From Salegentibacter sp. (lineage in GTDB: Bacteria; Bacteroidota; Bacteroidia; Flavobacteriales; Flavobacteriaceae), in the NCBI GenBank assembly GCA_017795085.1, contig CP051246.1, positions 2,668,514-2,732,513 of the forward strand: a stretch of DNA of 64,000 nucleotides, given 5' to 3'. Each line of letters opens with the position of its first letter. Within the stretch, counting starts at the first letter, position 1. The notes beneath the pieces are model-generated. The model was not told the origin of the DNA. It saw only the letters and a program-made list of their open reading frames with translations, and did no database searches. Shown in pieces: positions 3,012-20,951 of this stretch. A program made the position numbers and the translations under genes.

Positions 3012-3053
3012 GTCGAGTAGGTAAAGGGGAGTCTCACCCCTAAACCTCTCCCA

Positions 3054-4986
3054 GGTAGGGTCGAACGCTGGCGCACCAACCTTTCGATCGTGTTTCCAGC
3101 ATCCGCCTCGTCAAACGCAGCGTGCGCATTTAACGCACTGCGCTTTCCTAATGATTTCTTATCTTGCTTATAGCCTATCATGTTGGTGACACTTTCCTTG
3201 GGGATACTCGAAAGTCGCTATATATTTGACTCATAGCGTACAATCCCTTTGTACTCCATCTCATCCAACCGAAGCCCGATCTTCCTTTGGCTCTCATCAG
3301 ATGTCTTCGAATCTTTTTGGTCAACCAATCTTTTACATACCCGAATACTTTGCTTGAGTTCCCTACCTTAAAATATTGAACCCATCCTCGTAATATCGGA
3401 TTGATTAGCTCCTTTACCCTTGTCAAGGGCTGTGATTTATGACGCTGAAAAACATCTCTTATTTTCTCCATCAACTTCACCCTGGCCTGCATCTTGGGTT
3501 GATAGTTTACCCTCCATTTACCCGACTTCGTTTTTAGTCTTCTGAAGTCGAAGCCCAGAAAGCCAAAACTATCTCCCTTTCTTAAGTCCAGTTGTTTTGT
3601 CTTTTCTTCATTGATGGTTACTTGTAATTTCTGTAGTTCTTCCCGCAGTCTCTTGTTGACCCCTGCCCATAGCCATTCCCACTTGGGATGTCCATCTACT
3701 AAAATTACAACATCATCAGCAAACCTTGCGTATTCCAGGTGTGTGTATTTCCCTTCACGAGTTGTTTCTTTGGCTTTTTCAAGCATCTTGTCAACTTCGT
3801 TCAGGTAGATATTGCTCAGCAGTGGTGAGAGAACCGATCCTTGTGGAACGCCTTCTTTACCACCGATTTTCAGCATTTGCTTGAGCAGTCTCATCACCTT
3901 GTCATCCGCTATGCGTTTTGCTACTTTTTCCAATAGAATGTGATGTTTCACTGTATCGAAGTACGTCCTTAGGTCTAAATCAATAACCCGGGTCTTTTCT
4001 TTTACTACAGCTTCCGCAACCCGTTCTACGGCTTGATGTGCTGTTCTTTTGGGCCGATAGCCATATGAGCCTTTCTGGAAGTCCGCTTCAAAAATCGGTT
4101 CCAGAATCAGTTTCACTGCCCCCTGAACTACCCGGTCCCGGATCGTTGCGATACCTAGCTTCCTGGTCTTGCCATTTGCTTTGGGAATCTCTTTTATCCT
4201 GTTCCGGGAGGGTCGGTACGTTTCGTTGAGCAGTTCTGTTTGTATGTCCAGCAGGAAAGTTTCCACTCCTAATAGTTCTATCTCATCAAAGGTCATCCCG
4301 TCTATTCCCGGTGCTCCTCTATTCTTTTTGACCATTTGATAAGATTCCCTTAGCGTGTTTAGCTTACATACGTGAACATACATGCCCCAGAAGCGATGGG
4401 TGTTATCAGCCTTCGCTTTGATGTATATCTTCCTTCTCAGTTCCTGCAATGTAATAGACGTTTTTCTCATTTTCATCCTTGCCTCCCATTTTTGTTAGAA
4501 GATTATCATTAGTAAGGAGACTTTGCTCCATTCCCATTACGGAACTTCTTCGCTACTATTCTCCTCTCCGAATCCCTCTCATCTTCAGTTCATTTCCTTG
4601 CTTTCAAGTTATAGAACCTACCTTGCTCCGGTCATTTCTGCCCGGGATGAGGAGGGTCTCTCCAGTTGCGTCACATATCCTTGTTACCATGCTGTCGCTA
4701 CTACCCCGCCGGAGGTGTCATCCCGTTTCAGTCAGTTTCGGAAAGACATGCTGCCTTCGCTATACGGATATTAGCTCGGCCTGCCGGATTTAATCACTTT
4801 CGAGGCTACCTATGCGTTCACTTTCGTTACGGCCTGGCAACTTGCACAACCTGCTAAACAGGTCGTTTGTTAATGAGCTTCATGAGTTTCATTTCTTCCA
4901 CCCATGTCATTTAGCTACAGAGCTTTGACTTTTACTCTGGTGGGACTTACACCCACTGGATATGTCCACCTTAGCTGGACGCACAA
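3054..4986 (-). mobile_element. Group IIC intron with RT, nested in domain V/VI of another intron
   Basis: The 5' end is GTGCGTCCAGC at 4,986 (minus strand), followed by the domain I landmark GTGGGTGTAAGTCCCACC and about 500 nt of structured RNA before the RT ORF (4,476-3,178). The 3' end is near 3,054, after TTCGACCCTACC. The 5' exon is the distal strand of another intron's domain V (CACGTACGGTT). Group IIC introns are known to insert just after hairpins such as terminators or attC sites; a domain V hairpin fits that rule. Exact 3' end is uncertain by a few bases. The RT ORF is intact, so the element may still be mobile. Confidence 0.75.
3178..4476 (-). CDS. ltrA: Group IIC intron reverse transcriptase/maturase
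   Basis: This 432-aa RT-maturase lacks an HNH endonuclease domain, as expected of group IIC proteins. RT blocks are visible in order: RT0-1 (NRGAPGIDGMTFDEIE), RT2 (IPKANGKTRKLGIATIRDRVVQ), RT3 (DLDLRTYFDTVKH), RT4 (GVPQGSVLSPLLSNIYLN), RT5 catalytic YARFADDVVILV (FADD in place of the commoner YADD), then thumb/X domain (LINPILRGWVQYFKVGNSS) and a C-terminal RRHLMRAKGRSGFGWMRWS typical of class C. The protein binds its intron RNA, helps splicing and copies it into DNA by target-primed reverse transcription. It is embedded in the intron at 3,054-4,986 and is apparently intact. Confidence 0.9.
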   Translation of the reverse strand: MKMRKTSITLQELRRKIYIKAKADNTHRFWGMYVHVCKLNTLRESYQMVKKNRGAPGIDGMTFDEIELLGVETFLLDIQTELLNETYRPSRNRIKEIPKANGKTRKLGIATIRDRVVQGAVKLILEPIFEADFQKGSYGYRPKRTAHQAVERVAEAVVKEKTRVIDLDLRTYFDTVKHHILLEKVAKRIADDKVMRLLKQMLKIGGKEGVPQGSVLSPLLSNIYLNEVDKMLEKAKETTREGKYTHLEYARFADDVVILVDGHPKWEWLWAGVNKRLREELQKLQVTINEEKTKQLDLRKGDSFGFLGFDFRRLKTKSGKWRVNYQPKMQARVKLMEKIRDVFQRHKSQPLTRVKELINPILRGWVQYFKVGNSSKVFGYVKDWLTKKIRRHLMRAKGRSGFGWMRWSTKGLYAMSQIYSDFRVSPRKVSPT

Positions 4987-5049
4987 CCGTACGTGAACCT
5001 CTCGATTCATACGGCTCTTGTAATGCAGTCGGTAAAAGTCTAAATAGTT

Positions 5050-5606
5050 TTAGACCAGTTTGTAACCCAATTCCCAATGATAGAAAAGATTGGGATAGTC
5101 TCTTGTAACTTGCCGAAGCCATTTTACGGCTTTGACTTTGCTTCCTTTAAAGCGTTTATACTTGTTGAGTATCCATCTAATCAGACGGCTGTGTAAGTAA
5201 TAAAACACTGGCTGTAAGCTCCGGCGGCTTATTTTTCCATAATATTGAATCCATCCACGAATTTTAGGATTCAGCAGTCTGGCTAAATCCTGTATGCCGC
5301 GTTGGGTTTTGTTATGGAAGGCAAGCTCACGCAGTTTTCCTGTAATACGAACCTTAGATTTTCTGCTCATTTTACAATCGAACTGAAGAAAACTACCGCC
5401 TCTTTTCAACCTGAACCTTAGCGGTTGAAAGCTGAATCCTAGAAAATCAAATTGTACAGGGTATCCTTTAAGGTTTCTTCCATCTTTCTTACAATACACT
5501 ATTTTTGTCTTTTCAGGATGTGCTTTTAGGCTGCATTCTTCCAGACGTCCTTTTAGTGCTGTAAGTGTATGGGTAGCTTCCTCTATACTTATCCCTGACT
5601 CCTCAA
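5050..5606 (-). pseudogene. Group II intron reverse transcriptase, C-terminal fragment
   Basis: The minus-strand frame opens near 5,606 (ISIEEATHTLTALKGRLEEC, then KAHPEKTKIVYC) and runs to a stop at 5,050. It holds the end of the RT palm, the FDFLGFSFQP motif, the thumb (LLNPKIRGWIQYYG) and the C-terminal YPNLFYHWELGYKLV. The N-terminal half with RT0-5, including the catalytic YADD, is missing: upstream the sequence passes directly into intron domain I. It resembles the intact RT at 10,653-11,891 in its C-terminus (HPEKTKIVYC is shared). It must be non-functional. Confidence 0.85.
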
Positions 5607-5833
5607 TATAAATCAGGTTTTGACAACGACTGGTCTTTTCGTCACTTCATCGCAAGGCTCGCTTTCGCTCATCTCTTCTATCCGTACCTGACTATTTAAA
5701 TAGCCTTTTCTTCTATCGCTTCACACATCTTTGTTACCGCAGATGCATCATAGAAGTGGTTTGATGAGTTTTCCTAAAAACCCTCGTCGGAGGACCTACC
5801 TCCATCTTTATTATAGCTTACACAGCACACATA

Positions 5834-6347
5834 GAGTGGATGGCTCCGCCATCAAATGACGGAGTGCACCCCTCACACCACCGTACGTGCGGGTCTCGCA
5901 TACGGCGGTTCAACAATGAAACTCATCGATTGTAGTATTCGATTAGACTAACATAACCTTTCATTTTTAAGCGTTTTACGGTGATGGTGGTACGCAAAAT
6001 AGGACTTTGAGCTACTGCCCAGCCTCCCATTCGGGTACGACTCCAAGCATAGGCCTGGTCTGGATTAATTCCCAACCGAATAAGGTTTTTCCGTTTTCGT
6101 TCGGGCTTTTTCCAGTGATGTGCTTGCTCATCAGCCTAATATCCGGTTCTTGTTCGTCAGTACCAAGGTTTGTAGTCCCGCTTCCTTCAGTCCCAACTTC
6201 ACAGTTGGCAACCTTGCGGCTTACTAATGGTTCAAAGAGCCTGTCCTGAGGGATTCGAAGGATCACCCCTGCCCATAAGGGACTTGCACCCTTTAGATTA
6301 ATCTTTTATCTTTCGGTAAAAGAAAAGATGCCCATGCTGGGCACACA
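5834..6347 (-). mobile_element. ORF-less group II intron remnant, type A copy 1
   Basis: On the minus strand this begins GTGTG-CCCAGCATGGGC near 6,347, continues with GGTGCAAGTCCCTTATGGGC and GAACCGGATAT, as in domain I of bacterial group II introns, and ends with domain V (GAACCGCCGTATGCGAGA...CACGTACGGTGG, 5,875-5,912) and a domain VI stem ending CCACTC at 5,834. The middle, including the RT, is deleted, leaving about 514 nt. Three related copies lie at 7,553, 10,522 and 18,425. Its 5' end abuts an attC-like palindrome; its 3' side abuts the 5' end of the intron at 3,012-5,830. The translated frame at 6,007-6,249 is not a gene. Confidence 0.7.
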
Positions 6348-6478
6348 CAGCGCATATAGTTTATGGCGGAATTAGTGCCAAACCCAAAGTTTTTGTATTT
6401 TTAAAAACGTAAAACCTTAACCGAAAAAATTGAGCATTTTTGCCCGCCACAAACCATATACGCAAACTGTTATGTGCA
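6348..6478 (+). repeat. attC-like palindrome opening the PhyH cassette
   Basis: Long imperfect inverted repeat: GCGCATATAGTTTATGGCGG at the left pairs with CCGCCACAAACCATATACGC at the right (to 6,463), with an AT-rich loop. It ends in GTTATGTGCA (6,469-6,478), complementary to TGCACATA at the right end of the same cassette (7,545-7,552). Confidence 0.55.
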
Positions 6479-7552: not shown

Positions 7553-8118
7553 GTCGAGTGGATGGCTCCGCCATCAAATGACGGAGTGCACCCCTCACAC
7601 CACCGTACGTGCGGGTCTCGCATACGGCGGTTCAACAATGAAACTCATCGATTGTAGTATTCGATTAGACTAACATAACCTTTCATTTTTAAGCGTTTTA
7701 CGGTGATGGTGGTACGCAAAATAGGACTTTGAGCTACTGCCCAGCCTCCCATTCGGGTACGACTCCAGGCATAAGCCTGGTCTGGATTAATTCCCAACCG
7801 AATAAGGTTTTTCCGTTTTCGTTCGGGCTTTTTCTAGTGATGTGCTTGCTCATCAGCCTAATATCCGGTTCCTGCCTGGTTTATCCTGAATTTATCGAAG
7901 GGTCAAGTACCAAGGTTTGTAGTCGGTATTTGCTCATTATGCAATCGCAAATAATCTTCAGTCCCAACTTCGTAGTTGGCAACCTTGCTCCTTAGTAATG
8001 GTTCAAAGAGCCTGTCCTTAGGGATTCGAAGGATCACCCCTGCCCATAAGGGACTTGCACCCTATAGATTAATTTTTTACCTTTCGGTAAAAGGAAAGAT
8101 GCCCATGCTGGGCACACA
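7553..8118 (-). mobile_element. ORF-less group II intron remnant, type A copy 2
   Basis: Nearly the same sequence as 5,834-6,347. The minus strand starts near 8,118 (GTGTG-CCCAGCATGGGC) and ends CCACTCGAC at 7,553, with a domain V at about 7,596-7,631. It differs by an extra 40-50 bp around 7,880-7,945 and by scattered substitutions. It sits between the TGCACATA arm of one cassette and the palindrome that opens the next, so it was inserted into the attC-like site. No RT remains; the plus-strand frame at 7,729-7,995 is an artefact. Confidence 0.7.
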
Positions 8119-8307
8119 CCGCATATAACAAATAGCTTCGTTTTTTCTAAACCGGAAATTTTGGTAACTTTACCAAGTCGCCAAATTTTTATTTTGGCGT
8201 TTTAGGAATTTAAAGCTAAAAACGGAAAACAAAAATTTGGCTTGTGGCGTAGGCAAAAATTATCCGCAACTTGCACGCTACTTGTCATATGCAAATACGT
8301 TGTGGCA
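8119..8307 (+). repeat. attC-like palindrome opening the Fur/Rid/DinB cassette
   Basis: Left arm GCATATAACAAATAGC (8,120) pairs with GCTACTTGTCATATGC (8,277-8,292); inner segments also pair (ccaaatttttattttggc region, and cggaaa/tttccg-like blocks). It ends with GTTGTGGCA (8,299-8,307), complementary to TGCCACA at 9,791-9,797. Confidence 0.55.
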
Positions 8308-10491: not shown

Positions 10492-10564
10492 TGTTAATGA
10501 ATAGAATAAAGCCAGTTGCTATCGAGTGGATGGCTCCGCCACAAATGACGGAGTGCACCCCTCA

Positions 10565-18382: not shown

Positions 18383-18424
18383 TACAGAACACGGAAGACT
18401 GATAAAGACAACGAACCGCCAATT

Positions 18425-18703
18425 GATTGGATGGCTCCGCCATCAAATGACGGAGTACACCCCTCACACCACTCCCGAAAGCCTTCGGGATACGGGTCTC
18501 GCATACGGCGGTTCAACAATGAAACTCATCGATTATATCGTATTAGACTAACATGACTTTTCACATTTAAGCGGCTTACTAATGGTTCAAAGAGCCTGTC
18601 CTGAGGGATTCGCAGGATCACCCCTGCCCATAAGGGACTTGCACCCTATAGATTAATCTTTTACCTTTCGGTGAAAGAAAAGATGCCCCTGCTGGGCACA
18701 CAC
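18425..18703 (-). mobile_element. Heavily deleted group II intron remnant, type A copy 4
   Basis: Only about 280 nt remain: the 5' end (GTGTG-CCCAGC, near 18,703) with GGTGCAAGTCCCTTATGGGC, joined at about 18,570 to a 3' end with domain V and a domain VI stem (CCATCCAATC) at 18,425. One strand of domain V is replaced by a different hairpin (CCCGAAAGCCTTCGGG, 18,467-18,484), so this copy is very unlikely to splice. Confidence 0.65.
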
Positions 18704-18764
18704 ACCATGTAACTGCAATAGCCGCGAAAATGCGACTATTACAGTTATATTTACGTTATGTGCA
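18704..18764 (+). repeat. attC-like palindrome opening the PEPM/Ada cassette
   Basis: ATGTAACTGCAATAGCCGCG pairs with CGACTATTACAGTTATAT, almost the same hairpin as at 715-757. It ends in GTTATGTGCA (18,755-18,764), complementary to GCACATA at 20,653-20,659. Confidence 0.6.
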
Positions 18765-19601: not shown

Positions 19602-20660
19602 ATGCTGATTAAAGACAATAACAAAATCGAAACTTATTATCAAGCTCTGTTAGATAGAAAACAGAGCTTTGTTGGTATTTTCTTTGTAGGCGTAAAAACC
19701 ACTTCTGTTTTTTGCATTGCGACTTGCCGAGCAAGAAAGCCAAAACTTAAAAATGTAGAATTTTACACCTCTTTTAAAGAAGCTTTGGATAATGGATATA
19801 GACCTTGCAAAATCTGCAAACCGACAGAAAATGCAAATCAAACACCTGAACAAGTCGAGAAAGCAATTATATTGGTAAAAGAAAACCCTAAAGAAAAAAT
19901 AACCGACTTCCAATTAAGGAAAAAAGGAATTAGTCCAGAAGTAGTACGTAGATGGTTTAAAAATAATTATGGTATGACTTTTCAAGCATATCAAAGAATG
20001 TATCGAATAAACAATGCCTTTCAAGAATTGAAAAAAGGAAAGAACGCTACACATACTGCTTTTGACACAAGTTACGAATCGTTAAGTGGTTTTGGCTATA
20101 CTTTTAAAAAACTTATAGGCAAATCACCAAAGCAAATTAATGATAAAAACATAATCCTTATAAACCGACTTACAACACCTTTAGGCCCAATGTTTGTTTG
20201 TGCAACAGCTAATGGAATTTGTTTATTAGAGTTTGTAGATAGGCAAATGCTTGAAACAGAATTTAAAGACCTTCAAAAGTTGTTGAAAGCAAATATTATT
20301 TCAGGCGAGAACGAACATATGAAACAAGCCAAGAAAGAGATTAAAGAATACTTTGAGGGTTCAAGAAAAAAATTTGACGTAAAACTTGAAACACCAGGAA
20401 CTGATTTTCAAAATTCAGTTTGGAACTGTTTACAACAAATAGAATTCGGAAAAACTATAACTTATCAAAAACAAGCAGAAAAAATTAACAATCCAAAAGC
20501 AATTAGAGCAGTTGCATCTGCTAATGGCTATAATAGAATTTCTATTGTTGTACCTTGTCATAGAGTAATCGGAAAAGACGGAAAAATGACTGGATATGGT
20601 GGAGGAATTGAACGAAAGAAATGGCTAATTGAACACGAACGGAAGAACGCCAGCACATAG
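19602..20660 (+). CDS. ada: Bifunctional Ada: alkyl-DNA methyltransferase and AraC-type activator
   Basis: The 352-aa protein has all Ada parts: an N-terminal zinc domain with Cys38, Cys42, Cys69 and Cys72 (FCIATC...CKIC), where Cys38 should take methyl groups from phosphotriesters; an AraC-type HTH (about 85-180, KGISPEVVRRWFKNNYGMTFQAYQR); and a C-terminal O6-alkylguanine transferase domain (TYQKQAEKINNPKAIRAVASANG, active-site VVPCHRVIG, Cys319). It repairs alkylated DNA and, once methylated, activates its own operon. It is coupled to the preceding PEPM-like gene. Its stop codon overlaps the cassette end: the final G of TAG is the last intron base at 20,660. Confidence 0.9.
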   Translation: MLIKDNNKIETYYQALLDRKQSFVGIFFVGVKTTSVFCIATCRARKPKLKNVEFYTSFKEALDNGYRPCKICKPTENANQTPEQVEKAIILVKENPKEKITDFQLRKKGISPEVVRRWFKNNYGMTFQAYQRMYRINNAFQELKKGKNATHTAFDTSYESLSGFGYTFKKLIGKSPKQINDKNIILINRLTTPLGPMFVCATANGICLLEFVDRQMLETEFKDLQKLLKANIISGENEHMKQAKKEIKEYFEGSRKKFDVKLETPGTDFQNSVWNCLQQIEFGKTITYQKQAEKINNPKAIRAVASANGYNRISIVVPCHRVIGKDGKMTGYGGGIERKKWLIEHERKNAST

Positions 20661-20951
20661 TCGAGTAGGTAAAGGGGAGTCCCACCCCTAAACCTCTCCC
20701 GTACGTGAACCTCTCGATTCATACGGCTCTTGTAATGCAGTCGGTAAAAGTCTAAATAGTTTTAGACCAGTTTGTAACCCAATTCCCAATGATAGAAAAG
20801 ATTGGGATAGTCTTGTAACCGAAGCCATTTTGCGGCTTTGACTTTGCTTCCTTTAAAGCGTTTATACTTGTTGAGTATCCATCTGATCATACGGTTGTGT
20901 AAGTAATAAAATACTGGCTGTAAGCTCCGGTGGCTTATTTTTCTATAATAT
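20660..20951 (-). mobile_element. 3' fragment of group II intron closing the cassette array
   Basis: Minus-strand order: a piece of RT C-terminus (20,763-20,951, related to 5,060-5,245 with small indels), domain V (20,705-20,735) and domain VI ending CTACTCGAC at 20,660. It is the same intron type as 3,012-5,830 but without the nested IIC intron, so it shows the undisturbed V-VI junction. Similarity stops abruptly at about 20,951, which marks the array boundary. Confidence 0.75.

Follow-up and report, generated by a model that had tools for sequence, protein, structure and literature searches.

A 64,000-nucleotide (nt) stretch of the Salegentibacter sp. genome (contig CP051246.1, positions 2,668,514 to 2,732,513; hereafter the window) contains a complete group II intron lodged inside the catalytic domain V (DV) of a second group II intron. 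The initial annotation, made from the letters alone, had proposed this nested arrangement, known as a twintron, and our analysis bears it out. The inner element lies on the minus strand between nucleotides 33 and 34 of the outer DV (33^34), and its flanks are the two parts of one interrupted copy, with DV nucleotides 1-33 on one side and nucleotide 34, the linker and domain VI (DVI) on the other. A survey of genomes for introns at DV, which that annotation had suggested, places 18 of 23 loci of the inner intron's family at the same DV position; DV as a family-wide target is new relative to the earlier account. We consider it probable that the inner intron represents a reverse transcriptase (RT)-encoding lineage specialized for the DV of other group II introns, and its family seems to propagate by entering other group II introns at a single precise position.

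The nested locus

The inner element carries the sequence hallmarks of a group II intron, namely a GUGYG start and DV and DVI hairpins, and its domain 1 to domain 4 (D1-D4) core matches RF02003 at 111 bits (cut-off 49). The 5' GTGCG had initially been placed at 4,986; reading the minus strand, we find it at 4984, with the 3' end at 3055. The 432-amino-acid (aa) open reading frame (ORF) is uninterrupted, as first described, and encodes a group II RT/maturase (TIGR04416, 375 bits; GIIM, 61 bits) in which Pfam recognizes RT and maturase domains only and no endonuclease domain. No further copies of the intron were found in its own genome, where the remaining three matches cover only 33-39 nt. Its own DV was missed both by RF00029 and by R1, our custom DV covariance model; R1 detects the own DV of several relatives.

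At the other side of the junction, the R1 match to the outer DV ends precisely at 4985 (49.1 bits, E 7e-10), and the arrangement fits a twintron, one intron within another with an exact junction. The available text of PMC5572947 likewise counts DV as a 34-nt unit. In agreement with the initial annotation, the outer intron looks like a decayed remnant: only a C-terminal part of its RT persists, most of the protein having been deleted, and D1 is apparently incomplete. The D1 piece (RF01999, 5803-5686) starts ~28 nt past the end of another intron fragment, and we infer that it belongs to the outer intron and has hence lost its 5' end. As the outer intron looks like a remnant, any remaining activity would be that of the inner element alone, although help in trans to outer splicing is conceivable. 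The block to outer splicing that had been predicted would be of little consequence in this copy and may be relevant to relatives with full-length outer RTs.

A fragment at 20,660-20,951 is related to the outer intron, as had been stated (95% identity over 259 nt), but the joint between its DV and DVI is incomplete: it reads CACGTACGG followed directly by GAGAGG, without the six nucleotides TTCTGG, and for this reason the fragment cannot serve as a clean empty site. A DV-DVI of similar sequence that is clean and uninterrupted lies elsewhere in the same genome (G000:C1:4103806-4103883). The intron concerned (L008:1501-1578) shares with the outer intron two 35-nt DV/DVI stretches that are 97% identical, and its RT is only 39% identical to that of the outer intron; an exchange of 3' modules between the two is possible.

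Table 1. Features of the nested locus and of a related fragment, in window coordinates
Feature	Position	Strand	Details
Outer intron DV nucleotides 1-33 (inner 5' exon)	4985..5017	minus	GAGCC...CACGTACGGTT; model R1, 49.1 bits
Intron-binding site 1 (IBS1), TACGGTT, 3' strand of the outer DV stem	4985..4991	minus	
Outer DV nucleotide 34, J5/6 and DVI (inner 3' exon)	3012..3054	minus	CTGGGAGAGG...ACTCGAC
Outer intron C-terminal RT/maturase fragment	5050..5499	minus	149-aa ORF; RT profile positions 223-352 of 353
D1 fragment given to the outer intron by position	5686..5803	minus	RF01999, 71.9 bits; 5' part seems missing
Inner group II intron	3055..4984	minus	1,930 nt; start GTGCGTCC, end CGACCCTAC; D1-D4, RF02003
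Inner RT/maturase ORF	3178..4476	minus	432 aa, open; FADD replaces YADD
Exon-binding site 1 (EBS1) hairpin of the inner intron	4759..4775	minus	GCTA-ATATCCGTA-TAGC, 4-bp stem
EBS1 guide heptamer, ATCCGTA	4763..4769	minus	6/7 pairs with the outer DV 3' strand TACGGTT; coordinates counted
Inner intron's own DV	3113..3144	minus	CTGCGTT, versus mostly YACGGTT in targets; read by eye
Inner DVI stem	3063..3104	minus	9-bp stem, read by eye
Related outer-intron fragment	20660..20951	minus	DV/DVI joined, TTCTGG missing at the joint

Domain V as a shared insertion site

We defined the family as relatives whose RT is at least 55% identical and tallied 23 different loci with a readable 5' junction. An RT scan of genome contigs supplied 14 loci (52-96% identity), and plasmid and genome searches supplied more; 26 plasmid records matched, 12 were fetched and 11 of these had a readable 5' junction. 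Model R1, built from 18 DV sequences that included no twintron junctions (one is an own-genome sibling of the window's outer type), was run on 39 sources. At 18 of the 23 loci the last base of the DV match stands immediately before the first base of the intron: the window, L024, L025, L026, L027, L030, L031, L032, L035, L038, L039, L040, L042, L044a, L045, L046, L064 and L065. Sixteen of these matches score between 30 and 52 bits. Among nine more distant relatives (L034, L044b, L050, L069-L073 and L076), R1 found no DV upstream of the intron; for L050, L069-L073 and L076 the statement refers to the sequence upstream of D1 rather than to a 5' end read base by base. The tally excludes L033 (5' end lost), L036, L037 and L066 (5' end missing) and L053 (none found), as well as L049, L063, L067 and L068, each the same insertion as another row. 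The 3' exons of L036 and L037 are DVI-like.

The hosts of the family span Bacteroidota, Rhodothermota and alpha- and betaproteobacteria, and include a Rhodothermales metagenome-assembled genome (MAG), Bradyrhizobium, Paraburkholderia, Caballeronia and Cupriavidus. The outer introns, typed for seven of the 18 DV loci, fall into three Rfam D1 families: RF02005 (L027, L030, L046), RF01999 (window, L025, L040) and RF02003 (L044). A full-length outer RT lies directly upstream of the inner intron in L026, L027, L040 and L046. The family is rare, with members in 2 of 296 genomes of the phylum (own genome included) and in 2 of 394 and 3 of 399 genomes in scans of two taxonomic families, each of the latter counts including one already known member; one of the three (G958) carries the same insertion as L026. 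These frequencies are lower bounds, part of the candidates having been scored in some genomes. An RT search of viral collections returned no relative, and 10 phage records hold relatives, at no more than 41% identity. One locus in the viral collections (L043), outside the R1 search set, was the sole match there to a pattern of DV plus intron start; it has no intron features and was set aside as chance.

How the position is chosen is suggested by a single loop that varies with the insertion site in an alignment of the first 430 nt of 25 copies. Across 19 copies, 72 of 76 cells of the stem below this loop are paired and compensatory changes occur, and the loop heptamer, the presumed EBS1 guide, is complementary to the final seven 5' exon nucleotides, with a mean of 6.24 of 7 pairs (19 distinct pairs from 23 rows, a G-U counted as half a pair). 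When partners were shuffled 100,000 times, the mean fell to 3.83 and no shuffle was as good as the true pairing. Within the 13 distinct DV pairs alone, 75 of 100,000 shuffles equalled or beat the true order, which wins because guides follow changes in the host DV; target/guide pairs include TTCGGTT/AACCGAG, TCCGGTT/AACCGGA, CACGGAT/ATCCGTG and AGCAGTT/AACTGTA. The lowest DV pairing is that of L064 (5/7). The six non-DV pairs reach their best score in the true order, and these copies match their own sites at 7/7 (L029), 6.5 (L028, L034, L047), 6 (L062) and 5.5 (L048). L032, whose D1 is interrupted, and L044b, a looser match, were excluded from the test.

Movement can be followed in Bradyrhizobium. 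Two inner introns on one plasmid (L039 and L045) show 100% identity over 1,944 bp, and their 200-nt upstream flanks share 57% identity; a third, on the plasmid of another strain and in an RF02005-type outer intron (L046), is 99.8% identical to them with upstream flanks at 53-54%. Joining the flanks of L046 yields a 200-nt string that is present, 200 of 200 at 100%, in 11 plasmid records, and the joined flanks of L039 predict an empty site found letter for letter in one plasmid record. Since the joined flanks are found whole, the ends are exact and no base was gained or lost in either case. The two empty sites score 62.4 and 39.3 bits against RF00029 (cut-off 40). At the level of sequence, then, the position 33^34, the complementarity of EBS1 to the 3' strand of the host DV, the exact ends and a recent movement of the inner element between different outer introns are all evident.

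In a 39-row RT tree, the family forms one group of 21 rows, 16 DV and 5 non-DV (support 81/94, with an open fork); the next outgroup, L033, has a canonical own DV. The DV labels change five times on this tree, against a shuffled mean of 11.0, and are thus clustered; the own-genome RTs L016 and L017, labelled non-DV, fall outside the family and add no changes within it. On the simplest reading DV targeting arose once and was followed by several retargetings, with deep forks that are not firm. Of the 21 family rows, 17 have an FADD motif and two (L025 and L026) have YADD, with L028 and L047 matching neither. FADD instead of YADD also characterizes the RT/maturase group g2 (Toro and Martinez-Abarca 2013, PMC3552965), which resembles the family, by description rather than by sequence, in this motif and in lacking an endonuclease domain; the text on g2 states no insertion-site preference, whereas most family loci lie in DV.

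In the Rhodothermales MAG (L032:4739-7444), a DV-inserted family member is itself interrupted in D1 by an intron of the D1D4-6 (RF02005) type in which no RT was noticed, giving a three-layer nest. In L046, L049 and L077 the outer intron adjoins IS66 transposase genes, an apparent stack of IS66, outer intron and inner intron. The Cupriavidus locus (L044:1579-3490) has as its outer intron a distant RF02003 relative (RT 48%) with the unusual DV AGCAGTT, and the inner EBS1 differs correspondingly. The 3' exon at L045:5438 opens on a further GTGTGTCCAGG, which gives the impression of a second intron start following immediately. Within the window, intron pieces at 5831-6349, 7554-8129 and 18422-18713, in which no RT was noticed, have common 5' ends and DV/DVI (81-96% identity) and a DV resembling that of the GsI-IIC-like reference L074. 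A 44-nt stretch at 10521-10564, directly after the DVI of an intact intron (~12.79-10.52 kb), matches, at 96-98% identity, the DVI tails of two of these pieces, those that end at 5831 and 7554.

Alternative explanations and self-avoidance

The initial annotation assigned the inner intron to group IIC and explained its site by the preference of that class for hairpins, so that DV would have served merely as a stem-loop. We regard this as unlikely, even though a DV hairpin lies directly upstream of the insertion and the best phmmer scores of the inner RT are to IIC enzymes (GsI-IIC, 178 bits; Eubacterium rectale maturase, 155; followed by TeI4h, 117, and LtrA, 107). The IIC RTs are thus the closest among solved structures; the closeness of the sole IIC row in our tree (L074) is unsafe because of its very long branch. 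The RF02003 D1-D4 of the inner intron differs from that of two GsI-IIC-like references (L074 and L075, RF02001 and RF01998). In free energies compared without a shuffled control, 13 DV junctions lie between -10.9 and -17.6 kcal/mol, whereas four of the five non-DV members of the family have weak predicted upstream structure (-4.2 to -6.6 kcal/mol) and one moderate (-13.3); of all seven non-DV copies folded, five are weak (-3.7 to -6.6 kcal/mol) and two moderate (L048, -13.3; L044b, -13.8). In two of these copies, the weak L034 and L044b, a stem reaches to within one base of the junction. Group IIC introns, in the available text of PMC10190682, recognize a DNA stem-loop with a short EBS1, and the stem precedes a separate short IBS1. 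The family differs in that ~7 nt of EBS1 pairing fall inside the hairpin stem, and in having non-DV sites without a constant hairpin. These seven nucleotides themselves make up the 3' strand of the DV stem, so that pairing within the stem and pairing with the guide exclude each other. The heptamer guide, the D1 family and the structure at non-DV sites all depart from group IIC traits.

Homologous recombination between conserved DVs, rather than retrohoming, might instead have spread the inner copies, an explanation to which we give slightly less credence still. DV is conserved, and the own-genome intron described above shares DV-DVI with the outer intron and not the rest. However, the L046 host DV is only 61-66% identical over 33 nt to those of L039 and L045, and EBS1 tracks each target, which counts against recombination. 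That the twintron arose once and was then inherited or moved as a unit is very improbable as a general account and is refuted for the Bradyrhizobium cases. Some rows do share an outer intron (L046, L049 and L067, with the same flank; L039 and L068, 99%; L030 and L031, 96%), but identical inner introns sit in outer introns with ~57% identical flanks, empty sites exist and the outer RTs fall in different branches of the tree. Finally, an unspecific chance landing of one intron in another, to which a window rich in intron pieces might point, is refuted by the survey, in which 18 of 23 family loci across phyla share one nucleotide position and guides covary with their sites.

We return to specialization for DV, weighing what speaks against it. 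Five of the 23 loci (L028, L029, L047, L048 and L062) have a readable 5' end without a DV, and two of the DV matches are weak, both in RF02005-type hosts (L027, 26.6 bits; L046, 19.1 bits, E 0.07). Locus counts are not independent events, because the loci are related and were collected through their similarity to one or two query sequences. The EBS1 register was picked by eye, once, before the test, with one alignment column for all copies, and the window pair itself has a T:T mismatch at -2. Several inner RTs are damaged (split in L035 and L038; shortened in L065, L067 and L068). No full-length RT was seen in the outer introns of L039 and L045, and the sequence 3' of the inner intron in L045 is not DVI. 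L030 and L031, which occupy one genome, share 96% identity in their outer flanks and could stem from the copying of a single complete twintron, and because DV is conserved some movement by recombination is possible copy by copy. Lastly, the change in the introns' own DV described next is partly shared by descent and occurs also in non-DV members.

The family's own DV is altered at the dinucleotide that marks its targets. CG at -5/-4 is present in 7 of 8 DVs of other introns and in none of the 22 tabulated family copies (several of them near-identical), where it is replaced by GC (15), TG (3), AC (2), CC (1) or GG (1); L042 and L062, read alongside, likewise lack CG. Own-DV heptamers were read by eye and their presence then checked, with none readable in L034 and L069. 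Over 12 copies, EBS1 pairs with the host DV at a mean of 6.21 and with the own DV at 3.38, reaching up to 5 in single copies (L030, L038). That several different replacements occur suggests repeated selection on the own DV. Shared descent explains part of the pattern and non-DV members carry the change, which keeps self-avoidance a tentative proposal. We would put at just below even the chance that these elements are intron-on-intron parasites with self/non-self discrimination, in which the guide tracks the host DV while the own DV stem has been rewritten to be immune to it.

Mechanism and significance

Splicing and mobility of the inner intron and its relatives are deduced from sequence features, and we envisage the following cycle. 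Excised intron RNA with its RT/maturase would reverse-splice into DV target DNA, chosen through ~7 EBS1-IBS1 pairs. Insertion would probably take place when the target strand is single-stranded at a replication fork, given that no endonuclease domain was found, and the RT would then copy the inserted RNA. Insertion at 33^34 parts the catalytic triad hairpin from the branch-site DVI, and the outer intron should therefore need prior removal of the inner one, a requirement that follows from the established group II mechanism. Where a relative has an intact outer intron, its inner intron would have to splice out first, restoring DV and its link to DVI, and the host element would thereby be preserved by its parasite. 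An own DV altered at the target dinucleotide would spare the intron insertion into itself. A few members have new EBS1 sequences and occupy non-DV sites.

Twintrons and homing into other introns are already known. In Euglena chloroplasts, inner introns occur in DV or DVI of outer ones, so that group II introns are nested at functionally essential positions, as here; that system is a plastid one, and we know of no DV-specific RNA guide in it. The available text of the following sources describes further parallels. In Thermosynechococcus elongatus (PMC2882425), one intron family likewise has a conserved insertion site within another group II intron; those inner introns are ORF-less and lie between two start codons of the outer RT, whereas the inner intron here has its own RT and targets the catalytic DV of different intron classes. 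The Trichodesmium twintron (PMC4649490) is bacterial, as in the window, and its stepwise splicing has been shown, but it is an isolated example, and its inner intron lies in domain I rather than DV. Nested introns of Methanosarcina acetivorans (PMC4424553) also reflect repeated homing into other group II introns, though into related intron ORFs and not DV, going by a title cited in PMC3552965. In Porphyridium plastids (PMC4476101), one inner intron is found in two different outer introns and once alone; the available text does not name DV as a target. Group IIC introns at terminators and attC sites (PMC4424553, PMC10190682) resemble the family in an RT without an endonuclease and in that its DV sites follow a hairpin. 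In the literature we searched, we found no description of a bacterial lineage specialized for DV with covarying guides, although a prior description is possible.

Few parts of group II introns are as conserved as DV, which does not easily escape by mutation, so a DV-guided element could invade many kinds of introns and genomes; DV would offer a near-universal target for a hyperparasite. The family would serve as a natural test case for twintron splicing, for the avoidance by a selfish ribozyme of its own guide, and for the pressure that introns exert on one another in the evolution of DV, with a bearing on intron history and on that of the catalytic core of the spliceosome. Such an element could also be developed into a tool for inactivating other group II introns.

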